Assembly: GCA_030141585.1 (NCBI GenBank)
Contig: JAQIFP010000010.1
Coordinates: 70,772 to 94,322, forward strand
DNA length: 23,551 nucleotides
Direction of reading: 5' to 3'
Origin: Ophryocystis elektroscirrha
Taxonomy: Eukaryota; Apicomplexa; Conoidasida; Neogregarinorida; Ophryocystidae
Of this stretch, positions 3,498-22,141 are shown in pieces. The translations under genes were made by a program, and so were the position numbers. Within the stretch, counting starts at the first letter, position 1, and every line of letters starts with the position of its first letter. The notes below the pieces were generated by a model. The model was not told the origin of the DNA. It did no database searches and saw only the letters and a list, made by a program, of their open reading frames with translations.

Positions 3498-6034
3498 ACT
3501 TGAAAATGTGTATATCGCCATCATCATCCCCTGTAGCCAGTAACCAACTTCCGTCATCTGAATATATGATATATATACAAACTCAATAATTTTACCACAT
3601 TGCTTTGGGTTCCATGTTACGACATTTATATCTGATGAATGGGTATCTGTCGAAAAGCAAATTAAATTCCAAGAAGACTCTTCTGGTGCAGAGTTTAAAT
3701 GAACTTTTGGTTTTTCGACTCTTTGAAATATGTGTATACTATTATTACCGCAAGCCTACAAAAAAAAAAAAAAATAAATATATATAAATAAATATAAGAC
3801 ATATATAAAAAAAAAAAAAAAGCCTTACTGTAGCAATAATATCTGCATTTGGATGCCATGCAACTGAATATATAGGTCTCTCATAGTATCCTGATATGAT
3901 AGCTGAACACACCCAATTGTGCTTGGTTAAGGGTAGCTTATTTGACCATTTTGAAGAAATGGATAAACTTGGTGATAACACAAATGACCATGGATGCGCA
4001 AGGGGTATTTCACTGTCTAATAATGTATTTAATTAATTATTTGATTTTTCAGCAAACCATATACATCACTGAAACTGTGTATATACATTACAATATATAT
4101 TTATAGCAATTAACTGTGTATAAATGTTTTTGTATCTCAAAAATTGTAGATTTTTAATTTATTATACACATATTTTAAATTAATTAATAATAATGCTGTT
4201 ATCTACTACAGTGTATACATAAATTTAATTTTTTGCAATTGCATTCAAAACTAATAATATATATATATATATATATATGTATTTATATATATGAATATTT
4301 ATTTTTAATTGAGAATTTTGACATAAGGTATTACCGCGAGGCACAGCAGTCCATATACGCACTGTCTTATCTTCTGAACAGCTAGCAAATTCTCTACCAC
4401 ATTGTGATAATGAGATTTGCCAAACCGTTGATTTATGTTGCGATAGTATGTCTATGCAATTCCACTCTTCCTCGTCATCTGAATGTATTTTTTGTAATGG
4501 AGCCCATATACGAATAGTGGAGTCATATGAGCATGAAAATATAATTTTTTCAGTCGGGTGCCATAAAACATATTTAACATCTATACAAAAATACACACAT
4601 ATATAAATTTGTTTTTTTTAACCTTGTAGATGCCCTGTTAATATCGCTGTGCAAATAAACCTGTCTTCATACAGAGAATGAAGCCAAATAGATTTATTTC
4701 GACTACATGTTGCTATATGTTTGTTATCTCCGGACCAGCTAAGTTGTTTTATCTAAAAGTACACTTAAAATAAGAACAATTTAATTATTATTTTTTCAAA
4801 TATTTAAGTAATTACGTGTAAATTACAATAAATTTATGTAGTCTAATCTTCTAAGGTAAAGGCGTAAGAATAATTTTGTACTTAACTATTAAAGAAACGC
4901 TATCTAATACACAAATAAATACATGCCTATTTTTTGTAAGCATGTTTTTTTGATAGTCAGCTGATTTTATTAATATTAATTGCATTTTTTGTCATTATAT
5001 ATTTTTTGTTCAATATATATATATATATAAATATATAATCAAAATTAATATATATAATTAATACTAATATATATATATATATATATATAGTATATATAAG
5101 ATACTTAAATAAATGATTAATTAATGATACATACGTTATACCTCTTTAAATATCTATAATAAGTTAACCTCGTTTTCTTGACCTTGAATAATAGAAAAAA
5201 CTTCCCATTTATTTAATTCCTTTTCTACCCAAAGAGACACTGATGCGTCAAATGAGGCAACACCCAGACATTTTCCATCCCTTGACCAACTAACATTACG
5301 AGCTGTTTTGGAATGTACTGTTTCGTTTACTGGATACGGAATCTCTATTGTTTTTTTATGATAATTTTTAACGGAAGGTGATTTGTTAAATAGAACAGCC
5401 TAAGTGCAAATATCCTTTAAAACTCTTTAATATATGTAAACTATAGACGTTTAAGTATTTAGTCACATAGAAATACCATAAATTTATTATGAAGCTCAAT
5501 TATCATAAAAAATAATATAGCGTTAATATATGATAATAACTGTTTTGCATATCTCTATATAATAAATTATATATACACACTCTTAAATTACAATTACGTC
5601 CAAAACATTTCAAACAACGAGTATATATACTTAGATAGTTATAAAGAATATATACTGATGGATTACAATTAGTTATTAATTAATTATATGTATGCATATT
5701 ATTTATTTCTCAAGAATGTTTGTAGTTCGATCTAATAAAAAAAAAATATTACTAATTAGTTCAATATTTAATAATTATCAAAGGATATAGCTATTACGCA
5801 TATTTTAGATAGTAATAAGAATAAATTATTCCTGTATAATTTTTTTTTTGAGAGAGATAATTAGCTTATAAAAATTTTTCGTACTTTAATTTTGTTTTCC
5901 GCTAAAGTATAATCCCAAAGCAGTATGCGGCTTGCTCCGCAACTGGCTAGCTGAGATGGATAGTTTGGGCGCCAACTTACGCCCCAAACAACATCCTCAT
6001 GTCCGTGGAGTGTCTCAATTAATACTAGACTCAT
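3466..6034 (-). CDS. CIA1: Cytosolic iron-sulfur assembly WD40 protein (CIA1/CIAO1)
   Basis: Seven exons join in frame: 6034-5885, 5399-5169, 4752-4623, 4580-4335, 4016-3829, 3755-3596 and 3557-3466. They total 1197 nt, giving 398 residues against 330-340 in yeast and human. Introns are 485, 416, 42, 318, 73 and 38 nt. WD-repeat hallmarks follow the CIAO1 order: LHGHEDVVWGVSWRP, TARNVSWSRDGKCLGVASFD, ENEIKQLSWSGD, GHLQDVKYVLWHP, HKSTVWQISLSQCG then CSEDKTVRIW, RPIYSVAWHP, and DINVVTWNP then DDDGDIHIF. CIA1 is part of the targeting complex that delivers Fe-S clusters to cytosolic and nuclear apoproteins. The extra length comes mainly from an insert in the first repeats (about residues 45-75) and one after VRIWTAVPR. 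The final exon ends inside the Kish coding sequence. Confidence 0.92.
3558..3595 (-). other. 38-nt CIA1 intron (last)
   Basis: The intron runs GTAAAA...TTCAG and splits a codon as G/AT (Asp). It joins VVTWNPKQC to DDGSWLLATGDDDG, recreating the last WD repeat. It illustrates the short intron class of this genome. Confidence 0.75.
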
Positions 6035-11501: not shown

Positions 11502-12217
11502 TACATATACATATATACAAAAAAATGTACATATAATATACATATATATATATATATATATATTAATATTAAAACAAAGATTATTAAACGTAATTATATA
11601 TGCATGCACTATTGTATATTTAATTATCCTGTGGAAGACAGAATAACTGTTTACAATCAAATTACCGGGAAAATCGTGACAAAGAACTTGAATAGGTGTG
11701 CCCATTTTCTTTTCCATGATTTTGTCGTATTTCCCTTTTTTTGAACCAGCTTTTAAACCTTGCCAAGGCAGACAGCCTCTATTGAAATACATCATGACAT
11801 ATCCAAGAGCTTCTAAATCATCTCTTCTTGATTGTTCGACCCCCACGTGTGTGTTAACAGAAGCATATCTAGCGGTTCCGGTTAAATTTTTGCCTTCTTT
11901 GTATGGAATATGCGTTCTACATGAATCCATGTATTTTTTCGCCAGACCAAAATCAATAAGGTAGACTCTGTGACATTGTTTCCCTCGACCCACTAGAAAA
12001 TTATCTGGTTTGATATCGCGATGGATGAACAGCTTTGAGTGAACATACTCCACGCGTCGTAGCTAATTGTAACAAAACTTAATTTACGTTTTATATTTGC
12101 ACTCAAATATTTGAACTAAATGTTTTCTATAAGCGTCAATTATTTAAACCGAAATAACAAAAAAATTATATATATATATACATGAAAAACATAAAATATT
12201 TAGAAAACTAATAACTC

Positions 12218-13253: not shown

Positions 13254-14298
13254 AAAACGATCTCGATTTATGTAATACTTTTCAAATTTTTATTATCTGA
13301 GGCGGAACAGGACCTAAATTGCAGAAATTATGATTTATATTATCCATATATCTAACATATATGCTATTTTACAGTAAAAAATAAACTTGAAATATCAGAA
13401 TTGTAATACGAAGAGTCTTATTATATCAAATATTGTTACTGATTCATTGTATATTATATAAATCAGTAGTTTTACTTTTTTTTTTTATTTTTTCAAAAAT
13501 GTACATAATTTTATTCAAATGTGTTTTCAAAATTCATTACTATATATCTATTTAGCAGCTATTATAAAGAATTAATTACTTATTTTGAAATTTATAGTAA
13601 TTTTTACACAGGGAGCTTGACGAATTTTTAATTTTGTAAATAAGAACCGTTATCTCGTGTTAATATAAAAAACAAAAAATTTAATATATTTATTTTTTAT
13701 CTATTAATCTGCATTAAATTACAATTATACATTAAAAAGAACAAAGTTAAAAACAAACTAAAAATTTTTTCCATAAATCGATTTCAAGCATAACATGGCG
13801 AAAAGTTATTAATTAATTGCAATCCAATATTTAATTCCGGGTTAGCACATTGACTCACAATTTACCATTATTAATTGCTTCGCAACACTTTTATATCCCA
13901 ATTTTCTAAAAAACAAACTCGCATTTTTTAAGAGTTAAAAAAATATTTGTAAATAAAAAATAATGTAAATTAATATAATAAACAATTGTATGTTTTATTA
14001 TATAATAAACTTATATTTTTGTAGCTGTAAATATATTCACTTACTAAATAATGTGATAGTTGATTTAATAAACAATAATTTATATAAGAATTTTATAAAT
14101 ATGCACAAACAATTGTATAATTTTTAATAAACTCGTACATAATATTTATAATAATTAAATTTGTGTATATATCATATAGGATGCTATTTTTAATAATTAT
14201 TTGGGAATAAAATTACAAAAATAATAGTATTTTTAAATATGTTCAATATATTTATTTTTTTTAACTGCATAGATAAACTATTAAGTGTGGTATTTTTC
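13254..14298. other. 1-kb intergenic region upstream of CK1
   Basis: The region separates the CK1 start from the 3' end of the repeat-protein gene, both on the minus strand. It is mostly A/T with no long ORF. One patch at about 13785-13880 has clearly more G and C than its surroundings and contains TTAATTGC twice (near 13812 and 13873). It could be a small non-coding RNA or a conserved promoter element, but no known RNA motif is recognisable. Confidence 0.45.
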
Positions 14299-17200
14299 TT
14301 ACTTAAAAGCTTGCTGCAAGTTGAGTATATCAATCATTTGGAAATGTTCTACTTGAGAAAATACGACTTGAGCAGCTACAAACATAACATCTGGATGATT
14401 CCAATTAAGCTTATAGCATGCCCAAACAAAGTTAACTATTTCTTGTTGATTAAATTTTTTTATTAGATTAAGAAGACATTTGAGTTTAGCAAATTTGGGA
14501 TGATTACTGGTAAGTACAGTATTGGTGACTTCGAGTGATGCCAAAGCCCAATATATATTAGATATATTTTGAGGTATATATTGATTTAATTTTTCGGCAG
14601 CATCATTACAAAGAGCTGTAGTTAATTCAATATGGCGATAATTTAATTTAGCCAATCCCCATAAAAGGTTTCCAACTTCTTGTGGTTTAAATTGATTAGC
14701 CAATTTTAAAGAAATTAAACAGCTTTTTTCTAATATCGGCATATGTTTCCATTTGAGGCGTGCACATGCCCATATAAAATTAGCTAATTCTTGAGGTTTA
14801 TAATACTGAAGTTTTTCCAATACTATACGGCATACATAATAGGCATCTTGATGCTTATTATCTGTTGTTTCATTATTAAATACACAGGATGTAGTATCCG
14901 CATAAAAATTACTGTTACTATTCTTATTATAAGAATAATTATTATAGCATATATCATTTATACAGCTAAAATCACTTTTTATGGTATCATTTGTTAATAA
15001 TTGATCTGAGGGAGTTAAAGCTGTCGAGTTTATCTCCAAAGTACCTAGTGCCCAATATATATTCGCTATTTCTTGGGTATTAAATTTGACTAACTGAGAA
15101 CAAGCTGTATCGACCAATAAATGTATTAAATTAATACGCTTAGTTCGAAGCTTAGCTAATGCCCATAAACAATTAGCTGTATTTTGGGGTCTTAATGTAT
15201 TAATATTCTTAATAATAGCTTGTTCAAGTGCATGGCATAATGGTGCACATTTCCATTGTAATTTCCCACATGTCCATAATACATTTGCTGTAGCTTGTGC
15301 ATTAAAATTCTCCACTTTTTGAAGTAAAGCTTGAAGTAATATTTGAGACTCTGTATTATACATATTATGGTCCATTGTATCTATTGAAGATTCTCCTTTA
15401 GATGTTAAATTATTAATATTCTTATAATAATTATTACTGTTATTACTATTAGTATTATAATTATTATAATTATTATAAGTCGGGTTATTATTAGGATTAT
15501 TACCAGGGTTAGTGTTATTATCCCAATTATACGACCGTATAGTAGCAGTATTATTAGTACTTAACCTAGAAGGATAATCTAATGATGAATGCTGCATATA
15601 TAAATTATTATCATTATAATTTATAGAGGAGAACTTTTTATTGATATTGTAATCATAGTCGAGTTTATCCTCAAACTCAACCAAATCCGATGGCGTCAAT
15701 TTACTGTCATGTATCTCTAAAGTCCCTAGACACCAATAAATATTCGAAACTTCTTGTAAATTAAATCGAATAATATTTGCTGCAGAATGATTAGCAAATA
15801 AAGTAATCACTGGTTTTAAAGAAGTAAGTTTAAGCTTAGCTACTGCCCACATAAAGTTGGCGATTTCTTGAGGCTTAAAGAATTTAAGCTTATTTTGAGC
15901 CTCTAATATCAAAGAAATGAATAAATGATGACCCCATTGTAACTTGGCACATGCCCATGCAAAATTTGCTATTGCTTGTGTATTAAAAGAGGACAATTTT
16001 GTTAAAATAACTTCCGTTAATTTAATTTTATTCGAGCAATGCATATTAGGAGTTAATACGGTATTTTTTATTTCGAGAGTACCAAGACTCCAATATACAT
16101 TTACAATATTCTGTGCATTAAATAAATCTATTTTTTTTAGGGCATATTCAGCAAGGATATGAAAAAGCTTTTCATTGCGTATATACATCTTAGAATAAGC
16201 CCACATAATATTGGCTATAGAAAGAGGCTGGAATTCTTCAATTTGGTTCATTGTTTCATTTGCTATAAAATCAAATAATCTTTTTATATATTTTTTCATA
16301 GTGCCATTTTTATCATTTTCCGAATGTTTAGTGCAAGTTTTTGCTACAGACCATACCGTTAATGCTAATTGATAAGATGTTAAACGATGTTGATTTTTTT
16401 CGCATTTTAGCACCCGCTCACATAAGATTTCTTCACAAATAGGCAAATGTGTTAATAGTCGAACAAGTAAGCGAATTAAATCCGCTGCTATTATAGGAGA
16501 TATTTTTTCAATATGTATACTCGCTAAAATGATATATTGGATACCCAATAAACGATGCATTGGACGGTTAAAATACCGAATTAAAACTTCTATAGGTATT
16601 TCAAATATACCTATATTTATATTTTCAATTACTGAAGATTTCTGTTCTCGATTATGTATAATATCTGAAAATTTATGAAGAGAAATTGAATGATCTTCAA
16701 AGTAATTTAATTGGGAATCTAAAAAATTAAAATATGATTCCAAATCTTCATCAGTCTTTTGGGACTCCGAGTTAGTGGTATTTATTTTTTCATAGTCCAA
16801 AGAAGACTGTAAGAAGTAATGATTAGCAGCAGCTATATGTTGGCTTTTTATTAAGCAAGATGAGGAAGAAGAAACTGGAGGAGGAGAATCTTTACGAAAA
16901 TGGTGAGTTTCTAGACTACCACTCGACTGCGATGCTATGCCTTCATAGCAAAAGTCACTTTCTGTTTTTTTATATGGAGACGAAGAAGTTGCTAAAGGGA
17001 AAGATTTGTTCGAGCGAAGATAATTGTTAGGGGATGGCTTCAAATATCCAGCAGCTATAGTTGGAGATACACATAATGGAGAACTTAACAGAGCATTGGT
17101 AAAATTTTGACGCTGTTCATTACAAAATATATTAAGATCTTTCATATTAGTGCCAAACTGTTTACGGAAGATGTTTATATGCTTAAATAGAGACTCAGAT

Positions 17201-17352
17201 ATATAAGTTACCAATATTAAGAAAATTAATATAAAAATAACCCATCCACAATTAATATCGTATATACTTATGAAAAACTCTCTTGTAAATAATAAACCCA
17301 GACCGATATAACTAAATCGTGTTAAATATTCCATAATATCCTTTACTACCAT
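14299..17352 (-). CDS. Membrane-anchored protein with 13 helical (OPR/HPR-like) repeats
   Basis: A single uninterrupted ORF of 1017 residues. A hydrophobic segment at about residues 35-52 (CGWVIFILIFLILVTYI) suggests one membrane anchor. Residues 80-240 are Ser/Asn-rich. From about residue 325 to 1010 there are 13 repeats of about 35-40 residues with the core F-x-x-Q-x-[IL]-[AS]-N-x-x-W-[ATS]-x-[AG]-[KT]-L, for example FKPQEIANFMWAVAKL. Such repeats resemble octo-/heptatricopeptide modules of alveolates and algae, which are often RNA-binding and organellar. Three types alternate strictly A-B-C: type A ends KLQW, type B ends AKL, and type C reads NIYWALGTLEI..T.LTP. Low-complexity inserts follow two C repeats (Asn-rich 568-660, and 785-835). 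No RAP domain is visible at the C-terminus, which ends ILNLQQAFK. The start at 17352 is the first Met; Met7 is possible. Membrane topology and RNA binding are inference. Confidence 0.85.
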   Translation of the reverse strand: MVVKDIMEYLTRFSYIGLGLLFTREFFISIYDINCGWVIFILIFLILVTYISESLFKHINIFRKQFGTNMKDLNIFCNEQRQNFTNALLSSPLCVSPTIAAGYLKPSPNNYLRSNKSFPLATSSSPYKKTESDFCYEGIASQSSGSLETHHFRKDSPPPVSSSSSCLIKSQHIAAANHYFLQSSLDYEKINTTNSESQKTDEDLESYFNFLDSQLNYFEDHSISLHKFSDIIHNREQKSSVIENINIGIFEIPIEVLIRYFNRPMHRLLGIQYIILASIHIEKISPIIAADLIRLLVRLLTHLPICEEILCERVLKCEKNQHRLTSYQLALTVWSVAKTCTKHSENDKNGTMKKYIKRLFDFIANETMNQIEEFQPLSIANIMWAYSKMYIRNEKLFHILAEYALKKIDLFNAQNIVNVYWSLGTLEIKNTVLTPNMHCSNKIKLTEVILTKLSSFNTQAIANFAWACAKLQWGHHLFISLILEAQNKLKFFKPQEIANFMWAVAKLKLTSLKPVITLFANHSAANIIRFNLQEVSNIYWCLGTLEIHDSKLTPSDLVEFEDKLDYDYNINKKFSSINYNDNNLYMQHSSLDYPSRLSTNNTATIRSYNWDNNTNPGNNPNNNPTYNNYNNYNTNSNNSNNYYKNINNLTSKGESSIDTMDHNMYNTESQILLQALLQKVENFNAQATANVLWTCGKLQWKCAPLCHALEQAIIKNINTLRPQNTANCLWALAKLRTKRINLIHLLVDTACSQLVKFNTQEIANIYWALGTLEINSTALTPSDQLLTNDTIKSDFSCINDICYNNYSYNKNSNSNFYADTTSCVFNNETTDNKHQDAYYVCRIVLEKLQYYKPQELANFIWACARLKWKHMPILEKSCLISLKLANQFKPQEVGNLLWGLAKLNYRHIELTTALCNDAAEKLNQYIPQNISNIYWALASLEVTNTVLTSNHPKFAKLKCLLNLIKKFNQQEIVNFVWACYKLNWNHPDVMFVAAQVVFSQVEHFQMIDILNLQQAFK
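15380..15560 (-). repeat. Asn-codon (AAT/AAC) low-complexity tract within the repeat protein
   Basis: Residues about 600-655 are dominated by Asn with Tyr, Pro and Ser, seen as ATTATTATT-like runs on the plus strand. It separates the second A-B-C triad from the third. Such Asn tracts are common in AT-rich protozoan proteins. Confidence 0.8.
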
Positions 17353-17891: not shown

Positions 17892-18392
17892 TTATATATT
17901 TTCAATATTTGCATTTCTTATAATATCGTCGTCTATTGTTTCGTATTCAGTTGAATCGGCTAATGGGCCCAGTGCATGCCTAAAAATCACTCTTAATTTT
18001 CTTTTTTTTTTGCATATATGCATTTTATTGTGTATATAATTGTTTACAATAATTTTTATTATAGTTATGCATTTATTAATTTTTAAAATTTTTGTAAGCT
18101 GCATATAGGAATTGTATAAAAGTCCTTTCCTGTATCACTATTTCGATTTTTTTATTAAATATTTTTTTTTTTTTTTTAAATAGCTAAATAATTGTGTTAA
18201 TAATAATAAAAACTATTTTTAATATATTTCTTACTGTCTTTGGATTATATATAAAAAAAGTAATTCCGTTGTTATCCCCATATACATAAAAAACATTGTC
18301 CATAATATCACTTTTGAGAATTTTAATTCATATAATAAGATTAATAATACTTCCAATATCAAAACAAACACTAGAACTCCCAAGTTTGCCAT
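17892..18392 (-). CDS. Small two-TM membrane protein, possibly V-ATPase subunit e-like
   Basis: Two exons, 18392-18235 and 17979-17892, join across a 255-nt intron (CA/GTAAGA to TTTTTAG/G). The product has 81 residues, and a TGA lies in frame upstream of the ATG. It starts MANLGVLVFVLILEVLLILL (first TM, about 4-21), has a second hydrophobic segment at about 29-50, then QRQHALGPLADSTEYET and an acidic tail ending NIENI. Length, two-helix topology and a Q-x-x-x-L-x-P motif after the second helix resemble V-ATPase subunit e (human 81, yeast Vma9 73 residues, with QLxPLxxP). This match is weak and made by eye. It could equally be another small ER or pellicle protein. Confidence 0.6.
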
Positions 18393-20239: not shown

Positions 20240-22141
20240 ATGCCGATTCATCAACTTTGGGATGGAAAGGCACAAGTCTTATTACCAAGCGACAAAGATT
20301 TTTATGATTACAGTAAATACTTTCCAGTACCAGATCACCAAGTAAGTAGTTTTATATCAAATGAGTTCTAATGATTATATAAATATATTAACGTTTGCTT
20401 TTTGAGTTCAAATGTGCATCCCACTTTGCATATGGTGTATATATATGGTGTATATATATGGTGTATATATATGGTGTATATATATGGTGTATATATATGG
20501 TGTATATATATAGTGTATATATATGGTGTATATATATGGTGTATATATATGGTGTATATATATGGTGTATATATATGGTGTATATATATGGTGTATATAT
20601 ATGGTGTATATATATGGTATATATATAAGGTGTATATATATGGTGTATATATATGGTATATATATATGATGTTTATATATTTGAATTATATATATAATAT
20701 CTATATATATATATATTTATATATATTTATATTTGAATTATGAATTTATATTAGAGTCATATCTAAATTGTAGGAAATTTTGATAATGCATTCGCAAAGT
20801 GATTTGGAAGCAAAACTTATATTTGAAATTAGTGAATATATAAGTTTCCCTTATTATCAAGATACCGCAAAACTATATTGGAACGATTTACAAGACGCCA
20901 ATGAGGCTTTAGGAGATCAAGTAAAAAATTTTTTTAAGTAAAGTTCTGGAAATCAGATTTGGAACATAGACTTTAAACAAATTAAAATCGACGAAATGGA
21001 ATGTGAATTAATCAATACAGTTGGTTATCAGCTTATCAGAAATGACAGTAAAAAAATACATTTTGTAATTGTATTTTTAACAGTTCTTCAGTTATCACAT
21101 GTGCAATCAAATGTAATCTTGTATAATTTGTATTATAAGGAATTATTACTTAACATTTTTATAGCATATGTAACATTTATATTACAAATCTAAGCAAATT
21201 CGTATAATCTTGATATATATATAATCATATGTGTATTGATATATTTGTCTATTTCAAGTTAGACTTATATAAACATATACTGTTATGTTATATACATATA
21301 TTAATCGTACACATATATATACATATATATAAATAGATATACAGATATATACATATATATACATATGTATAATTATATTTACATATATATACATATATAT
21401 ACATATATATACATTTATATACATTTATATACATTTATATACATTTATATACATTTATATACAAATATATACATATAAATACATATGTATAATTATTTTT
21501 ACATATATATACATATGTATAATTATATTTATATATATATACATATATATACATATATATACATATATATACATATATATACATATATATACATATATAC
21601 ATATATATACATACAAATACATATATATATACATGTATTTATGTAGCTATGTGTAAATACTAGACATAATAATTTAGTATACTAAGTATATCGTCACTCA
21701 GATAAATGCTTAGTTAAAGAATAAATCTATATACAGTTTACATTTAATGTTGCAAGTACATTATATGTAAACTGTATATATGAAATATATATTGCGTATA
21801 TACGTCAAATTGCACAATAGCATAGTAAATATACATCAGTATAACTTATAATAAAATTGAAACATACAGCTAGTTACATATAAAGTAAAATAAGAAATAT
21901 ATATGAATGAACCTGCGCATAATTATGAACATATAATGGCAATATAGACCCTGTATATATATATTGAATGCAGATATCGTTAACTTATTATGTGCCTCAA
22001 CATGTTGTTTCTGACAAAATGGATTTTAAGAGAAACTTCAGTATTTCCAAATATACAGATGCTATACAAACAGCTGGTGATGTTTTTTATTATGTTTTGG
22101 AATCATTCAAAATAAATGATTGGGCTTTATTTGATGGTTAA
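20240..22141 (+). CDS. MOG1: Ran-binding protein MOG1 (Ran guanine nucleotide release factor)
   Basis: Four exons, all phase 0: 20240-20341, 20774-20920, 20957-21112 and 21974-22141 (573 nt, 190 residues, against 186 in human and 218 in yeast). Introns are 432, 36 and 861 nt. The family pattern is followed throughout: [12 protein letters not shown] (start of the fold), [12 protein letters not shown] (family PVPDNQEVF), [32 protein letters not shown], then [16 protein letters not shown] joined to ISLTYYVP (family LIRLxQFxTDVVISINVP). MOG1 binds Ran in the nucleus and promotes nucleotide release, supporting nuclear protein import. The 36-nt intron is a multiple of three but carries an in-frame TAA. 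Both long introns are built from minisatellites. Confidence 0.9.
20434..20665. repeat. 13-bp minisatellite GGTGTATATATAT in MOG1 intron 1
   Basis: About 17 near-perfect tandem copies of the 13-bp unit. Variants include AGTG in place of GGTG near 20512 and GGTAT or AAGG variants near 20615-20660. Because 13 is not a multiple of three, it translates in every frame as a 13-residue repeat ([13 protein letters not shown]), giving long but meaningless ORFs. Confidence 0.93.
21302..21630. repeat. 10-bp minisatellite (TATATACATA) in MOG1 intron 3
   Basis: An array of 10-bp units, mostly TATATACATA with blocks of the variant TATATACATT (21408-21460). It is interrupted twice by CATATGTATAATTAT-type segments (near 21363 and 21482), which suggests duplication of larger blocks. 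It sits inside the 861-nt intron. Confidence 0.88.

Follow-up and report, generated by a model that had tools for sequence, protein, structure and literature searches.

A period of three in the helical repeats of an HPR/OPR-like protein from Ophryocystis elektroscirrha

Why should a helical-repeat protein carry its repeats as three distinct types in a fixed order, and what might such an order serve? The question is raised by a gene of Ophryocystis elektroscirrha (assembly of 8.0 Mb in 118 contigs). It lies in a window of 23,551 nucleotides, by which we mean the whole stretch of DNA that was analysed; the locus DNA is AT-rich, with 18–30% G+C per 1000-base step across the window. The minus-strand ORF 17352-14299 (listed as 14299-17352) is 1017 amino acids long and encodes the helical-repeat protein.

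The main exon (14303..17352, minus strand) was delimited from the ORF list and, over the repeat part, from the homologues P0002 and P0003. It encodes an N-terminal hydrophobic segment, a low-complexity linker and 13 helical repeats. The hydrophobic segment (aa 33-51; 17200..17256, minus strand), called by a Kyte-Doolittle scan only, is a possible membrane anchor. By hydropathy it is the one strong segment near the N terminus of the window protein, and P0002 and P0003 have two such regions each. A long linker of low complexity leads from it to the repeats. Two weaker hydrophobic segments at aa 274-305, directly before repeat 1, are probably helices of the cap. At the other end of the gene, a last intron of 397 bases is probable (13906..14302, minus strand; donor GTAAGA at 14302, acceptor TTTTTTAG at 13906), because joining the exon beyond it yields a C terminus like that of P0002: the K that ends the main exon would be followed by KLGYKSVAKQLIMVNCESMC, like the R followed by KLGRLDVAKQLDSRVV in P0002. 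This probable last exon (13842..13905, minus strand) would complete the C-terminal half repeat with a sequence resembling that of P0002. Comparison with P0002 thus suggests that the stop codon of the 1017-residue ORF lies inside the intron. The predicted P0003 ends at the same border as the main exon of the window protein.

Thirteen full repeats were found in the ORF, as the preliminary description had stated, with cores starting at aa 326, 376, 413, 458, 494, 532, 685, 722, 759, 853, 890, 927 and 969. Where no insert interrupts them, they follow each other in steps of 36-38 residues. All are on the minus strand. Repeat 1 (16237..16386) holds position A by its order and, as judged by core comparison and the repeat tree, is too diverged for typing. 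Core comparison and homologue alignment gave the types of repeat 2 (16126..16236, type B), repeat 3 (15991..16125, type C, NVYWSLGTLEIKNTVLTP), repeat 4 (15883..15990, type A, WACAKLQW), repeat 5 (15769..15882, type B), repeat 7 (15199..15309, type A), repeat 8 (15088..15198, type B), repeat 10 (14695..14805, type A), repeat 11 (14584..14694, type B), repeat 12 (14458..14583, type C, 42 residues, without a large insert) and repeat 13 (14347..14457, type A). Repeats 6 (15310..15768) and 9 (14806..15087) were assigned to type C by homologue alignment and columns; the former holds a long Asn-rich insert and the latter a second one, confirming both inserts that had been noticed after the second and third C repeats. 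A half repeat 14 in position B (14303..14346) forms the C-terminal cap and runs on into the probable last exon.

The preliminary description had all 13 repeats in perfect A-B-C register. Since repeat 1 cannot be typed, we count 12 of the 13 in strict order, that is, B-C-A four times over. The types themselves are real, but the motifs proposed for them were too literal: WACAKLQW occurs as such in repeat 4 only, and WAxAKL is absent from repeats 2 (WAYSKM) and 11 (WGLAKL).

The 13 cores were first placed by eye, and their order was then tested by shuffling, using a 23-residue core and BLOSUM scores; the period of three was itself the hypothesis under examination, so the test was not blind. Pairs in phase (3, 6, 9 and so on apart) outscored the others by a BLOSUM difference of 20.2, and 13 of 100,000 order shuffles were as good. 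The mean scores at 3, 6 and 9 repeats apart were 58.4, 51.6 and 53.5, compared with 29.4-35.8 at the other distances up to 8. Differences for periods of 2, 4 and 5 were negative, and that for period 6, a multiple of three, was weakly positive. Repeats three apart are thus more alike than other pairs, as the preliminary description had predicted. With the same 13 repeats located in P0002 and P0003 by alignment, the window protein (P0001), P0002 and P0003 showed the same period, with 2, 10 and 14 shuffles as good per 20,000; when repeat 1 was left out, 6, 1 and 19 of 50,000 were as good in the three proteins, respectively.

The period is not confined to the first helix. In helix B it is weaker, with 501, 4 and 189 of 20,000 shuffles as good. 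The spacing of the repeats follows the triad as well: in each of the three proteins, all four gaps at C repeats are among the five longest of 12. With cores of 21 and 23 residues, the split between A and B was the best of all 70 label choices in all three proteins (counted as 2 of 70, each split having an identical mirror image); for 17-residue cores the figures were 2, 4 and 4 of 70. A repeat tree, built on 24 columns only, agreed in part: the C repeats formed one clade (99/99), but A and B were not cleanly separated (4 and 3 changes). An arrangement of two types only, C against the rest, is ruled out by the A/B split, even though the tree resolves neither A nor B as a clean clade.

Could the triad be a product of chance, or of misalignment in a degenerate repeat family? 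There are only 13 repeats, their cores were initially placed by eye, and the period had been proposed beforehand. A position-specific scan, with a matrix seeded from the triad family itself, recovered the same 13 places in the window protein; with that seeding, the scores of its repeats were 7.8-47.3, and the highest of 44 peaks in shuffled sequences reached 4.1. The pattern also recurs in two homologues, in helix B, in the spacing and in the charge of the helices. We regard an artefact as scarcely conceivable. Chance or misregister is ruled out by the shuffling, the two homologues, the result without repeat 1 and a survey of 97 other proteins given below.

P0002 and P0003 are 42-43% identical to the window protein over the best local alignments, which cover 44-46% of the query region, and 35-36% identical over the whole alignment. 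Both keep all 13 repeats, the order of types and long inserts after the first three C repeats; relative to the window protein, they have additional inserts after the first C repeat and in the fourth repeat. When each repeat was matched with those of another protein, the best hit was the repeat at the same position for 10 of 13 between P0001 and P0002, 9 of 13 between P0001 and P0003, and 13 of 13 between P0002 and P0003. Repeats at the same position in different species resemble each other more than in-phase repeats at other positions do, and the DNA of the repeats is only 60-81% alike; hence, the duplication is old. A recent duplication is ruled out on the same grounds, since for most positions the closest match in a homologue is the corresponding repeat. 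That the array grew by duplicating a block of three repeats, as suggested in the preliminary description, is supported by in-phase similarity that is found also, though more weakly, in helix B, in the spacing and in both homologues. It may be noted that the inserts of P0002 and P0003 between repeats 6 and 7 share an identical SLATPSTTESLGSPLLD.W amid poorly alignable insert sequence. It is not kept in the window protein, and is perhaps a short binding or phosphorylation motif.

To see in which residues the types differ, 36 repeats were compared, 12 from each of the three proteins. Type A has C at +10 and W at +15 in 12 of 12, type B has P at 0 and K at +12 in 12 of 12, and type C has Y at +7 and L-T at +20/+21 in 12 of 12. 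Only W at +15 (A) and Y at +7 (C) are exclusive to their type; P at 0, K at +12, C at +10 and L at +20 are found in some repeats of other types too. Column +12 is T, S or A in all 12 C repeats and K or R in all 24 A and B repeats. The net charge of helix A in the window protein averages +1.4 for A, +1.75 for B and -1.25 for C. That the C repeats lie below the rest in this respect was matched by 2, 4 and 17 of 715 label choices in the three proteins, and the best-phase charge amplitude was matched by 0, 1 and 3 of 97 other proteins. As a whole, helix A is basic in this family (0.54 to 0.69 per repeat), compared with a mean of -0.05 (sd 0.34) in 140 related proteins.

One column behaves otherwise. 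In each of the three proteins, the residues at +2 of helix A spell Q S N A E E A N E E E N E, so that 13 of 13 positions are identical. In repeats 2-13 this amounts to 24 of 24 cells identical between the window protein and its two homologues, and within a protein +2 agrees in only 0.29 of repeat pairs. The resulting contrast of 0.71 is the largest of 25 columns, the next being 0.55 (repeats 2-13); +2 was chosen after inspection of these 25. The +2 residue of repeat 1 is kept too, at a core identity of 39% to each homologue. The residue at +2 does not follow repeat type (p=0.298). In sum, what the triad distinguishes are the packing columns, the length of the loop and the charge of the helix, and not column +2; the residue that probably does the reading varies from one repeat to the next.

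This has a bearing on the step of three units on RNA that had been proposed for the repeats: it is not supported, since +2, the best candidate for reading a ligand, does not follow the triad. A related explanation is that only the A and B repeats contact RNA, with the C repeats as spacers that do not bind, which would give a three-unit step like that of the PLS triplets of plant PPR proteins. Such triplets exist, and the available text of PMC7190159 describes L motifs that are mostly spacers in two moss proteins. The C repeats do lose the basic residue at +12, the largest inserts are found in them, and their helix A has on average a negative net charge. However, T at +12 is common in repeats of other proteins as well (0.21 of 1779), and the +2 residues of the C repeats are polar (N, E, E, N) and identical in the three proteins, whereas position 5 of PLS L motifs is nonpolar in the same source (PMC7190159). 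Together with the independence of +2 from the triad, this makes the spacer explanation quite improbable.

Is +2 frozen in other HPR/OPR-like proteins? Strings of +2 residues are conserved elsewhere: EEEEEEDEEGDEE is common to six proteins and QEEGDEGEGEED to three Volvox proteins. The six are probably from diatoms, a guess from the names Skeletonema and Amphora in their groups. Over 15 groups, the same-repeat identity at +2 was at least 0.89 in seven, 0.60-0.71 in four and at most 0.38 in four. The last four include a 50-member, paralogue-rich group, the shown names of which are largely Endozoicomonas, and two of them are single pairs. In the 50-member group, +2 is the most variable column of helix A (0.33 at a core identity of 0.69). 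Being frozen in orthologues and hypervariable in paralogues is what would be expected of a specificity position, and +2 may thus be a candidate for that role in HPR/OPR repeats in general. Against this, the pairs P0039/P0128 and P0012/P0031 have +2 identities of 0.00 and 0.33, and +2 tops the contrast ranking in only 1 of the 15 groups. Over 1973 pairs, with paralogues and orthologues mixed, the +2 contrast was small (0.12); the split into orthologues and paralogues was made after that comparison and so was not planned blind. A primary specificity position of OPR repeats, with three helping positions upstream, is mentioned in the accessible part of PMC13126933, which cites a thesis for it; we do not equate that position with +2.

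How widespread is the triad? For a survey, the position-specific matrix was applied to 157 proteins, that is, the window protein and 156 among the matches listed (41 of 41 in one search and the best 120 of 148 in another). At least nine repeats in an uninterrupted run were demanded, and 57 of the 157 fell below this and were dropped. The three family members, in which inserts break the run, were exempted and their aligned positions used instead. A period of three at p<0.01 was found in these three and in not one of the remaining 97 HPR/OPR-like proteins that qualified, which were gathered by similarity to the window protein and are in many cases interrelated, so they are not independent, and among whose source names as shown there is no Plasmodium or Toxoplasma. 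One of the 97 had a period of five. Every family member has four copies of the type A motif W.C.[KR]L.W and four of the full motif of type C, neither of which occurs in any of 169 other proteins; the short C core occurs once outside the family (P0164, among the 169). The suggested motif search thus did reveal a family, of three proteins. Since none of the 97 others shows the period, the window protein, P0002 and P0003 make up a triad subfamily of HPR/OPR-like proteins. The preliminary description had said that ordinary OPR, HPR and PPR proteins do not usually show such a period. For OPR and HPR proteins this agrees with the sample; for PPR proteins it does not hold, because PLS-class PPRs are arrays of triplets according to the text available of PMC7190159. 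Above 32% identity, P0002 and P0003 were the only further family members among the matches listed (41 of 41, the best 120 of 148 and 17 of 17). Prokaryote genomes and viral contigs, scanned once each, gave 163 and 600 pattern matches, among which no member was confirmed. The available portions of the open-access literature searched (PMC8635915, PMC12691811, PMC8190603, PMC7729196, PMC13126933) describe no HPR/OPR protein with a triad, a claim that we make only weakly.

In Pfam, the window protein matched DUF6832 (PF20725) with 46.4 bits (cut-off 26) and FAST_1 with 33.7 bits (cut-off 27.4). No RAP domain (PF08373) was matched at E<=10, FAST_2 was not found by Pfam, and no PPR family was among the Pfam matches up to E=10; hence, of the FASTK order FAST_1, FAST_2, RAP, only the first is seen. 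NCBIfam gave only sub-cut-off matches to DVU0298_fam. The tandem repeats of 37-38 residues with a first helix of the N..WA.AKL type are those of HPR/OPR proteins. Most of the relatives whose structures have been solved belong to organellar RNA complexes, e.g., RESC6, mL115 and mL123; ASA2 of the Polytomella ATP synthase is also among those of the wider family.

The genome was searched for relatives of the repeat gene and for organelle markers. With the OPR query P0004 (E<=10) all three hits fell in the repeat gene, DUF6832 found the repeat gene only, and FAST_1 found nothing, not even the repeat gene, whose protein passes its cut-off. Provisionally, then, the repeat gene is the sole one of its kind in the 8.0 Mb genome. 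COX1, COX2 and Rieske had no genome match, with controls matched in 8, 9 and 10 of 14 named genomes, respectively. For phage-type RNA polymerase and RAP there was no match in this genome or in any control genome. The only S12 gene found is of the eukaryotic cytosolic type, in two exons, the type being judged by reading the sequence. IscU was found by the same kind of search, and AP2-domain matches occurred at 11 places, five of them over the cut-off, which fits ApiAP2 factors. Because the FAST_1 search missed the repeat gene and exon-wise searches can miss short exons, these absences are provisional. The organism may lack a mitochondrial genome. In the parts available of PMC8051059 and PMC9250747, Cryptosporidium is reported to have lost that genome, and the same is suggested of several gregarine groups; according to the available text of PMC8190603, C. 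parvum yielded no RAP protein.

Mitochondrial contigs are often dropped from assemblies. The protein could then be an ordinary mitochondrial HPR factor, with the organellar genome merely missing from the assembly. Known apicomplexan HPRs serve mitochondrial RNA, some of them at the periphery of the mitoribosome (PMC11652630, as far as its accessible text goes), and a genome search that overlooks the repeat gene can miss real genes. But nuclear-encoded markers fail too (no Rieske, no COX2, and an S12 of cytosolic type only), although IscU and AP2 domains were detected by the same kind of search; RAP had no match either, in a search that lacked a positive control. We consider such a factor improbable. 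It overlaps with the explanation that we prefer, which leaves location open, so the likelihoods of the two do not add up with the rest to certainty.

Several other features of the window were noted, of which the exons and the small ORF named first are on the minus strand. A tryptophanyl-tRNA synthetase exon lies at 650-1048; its best PDB match is 3hv0 (162 bits, versus 148 for the next), which we take to be the Cryptosporidium parvum enzyme. A WD40 protein exon lies at 4228-4596. Downstream of the repeat gene and in the same direction is a casein kinase 1 exon (11598-12053), and a first exon of the same kinase gene was read by eye at about 13290-13160. Upstream of the repeat gene, a small hydrophobic ORF of 53 residues that begins MANLGVLVFVLILEVLLILL (18231-18392) is possibly one exon of a short membrane protein. 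Two AT-rich tandem arrays were also observed. One, at 20430-20680, has a 13-base unit in 19 copies with 95% matches and extends to 20709 at a 39-base period; the ORF 20402-20743 is mostly its translation. The other, at 21289-21629, has a 10-base unit in about 35 copies with 82% matches. Scans of the window for tRNAs and Rfam families found none.

What, then, may the protein be? Sequence-specific RNA binding is our first choice, on the grounds of family descent, the basic helix A and the frozen +2 column. By this explanation, which we rate a little better than even, the protein would be a membrane-held, sequence-specific RNA-binding protein, an alpha-solenoid of the HPR/OPR/FAST type in which the triad is a matter of architecture. 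The predicted fold is a series of helical hairpins of about 37 residues, with 13 full repeats and a C-terminal half repeat, placed behind the low-complexity linker and the N-terminal hydrophobic segment, the latter of which would anchor it to a membrane. Old duplication of a three-repeat block would have fixed three types that differ in packing residues, loop length and helix charge. Each repeat would offer one reading residue, +2 of helix A, to a ligand that is presumably RNA, with one repeat per nucleotide; every third repeat, C, would have a non-basic first helix and a long loop that tolerates inserts. Some points count against parts of this. The anchor is a hydropathy call only, and one N-terminal segment passes in the window protein. 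The failure to find organellar-genome markers counts against organellar RNA, the usual ligand, as the target; that ligand may not exist in this organism. Moreover, HPR/OPR-type solenoids can be parts of complexes without a known RNA role, as ASA2 suggests in the available text of PMC8190603.

The last point leads to a protein-protein scaffold, a structural part of a membrane complex like ASA2, the triad reflecting contacts with a partner that is itself periodic. We put it second because ASA2 suggests that the superfamily can be structural, and PLS-like spacing third. The hydrophobic segment, the failure of the searches to show an organellar genome and the finding of only one gene of its kind are all in keeping with a scaffold, and an extended peptide is another ligand that a frozen column could read. 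The basic helix A of the A and B repeats and a column frozen at one residue per repeat, on the other hand, resemble nucleic-acid reading, and we think a scaffold rather unlikely.

The RNA-binding explanation can be carried further, though only tentatively. The three proteins could be a separate class of triad RNA readers, evolved independently of PLS, membrane-anchored and kept after loss of the organellar genome, with +2 residues frozen since their common ancestor and now reading cytosolic, nuclear-encoded RNA at a membrane. This is possible, if doubtful. If right, it would be the second independent triplet-organised RNA-binding solenoid after plant PLS, posing the question of what a period of three buys, and a single gene would serve to test the role of an organelle-type RNA reader once the organellar genome is gone. 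The contrast at +2 between orthologues and paralogues singles out one residue per repeat for testing an HPR/OPR code.

Among known systems, the apicomplexan HPRs share helical hairpins of about 37 residues and Asn-rich inserts between helices with the window protein, and most Plasmodium and Toxoplasma HPR/OPR proteins also have no recognisable RAP, going by the part available of PMC8190603. They differ in that known HPRs are many per genome and reported to be mitochondrial, whereas the window gene is the only one found, and its protein has repeats of three fixed types and is possibly anchored in a membrane. The OPR and RAP/DUF1601 proteins of algae, diatoms, dinoflagellates and Endozoicomonas-like bacteria share the core N..WA.AKL and are the nearest among the matches listed after P0002 and P0003, at 32% identity or less; they differ in the absence of period three from the 97 testable proteins. 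The FASTK family is alike in FAST_1, found over its cut-off, and differs in FAST_2 and RAP. ASA2 belongs to the same wide helical-repeat/RAP superfamily, but it is an ATP synthase subunit with a RAP domain, as the accessible text of PMC8190603 has it, and none was detected in the window protein. The PLS-class PPRs of land plants resemble the window protein in having three repeat types of differing lengths in a fixed order (PMC7190159, in the text available), an analogous triplet order in another repeat family. Their motifs are of 35 residues, and the window protein has no editing domain; its third type, C, is long through a loop insert. The two periods are probably of separate origin.
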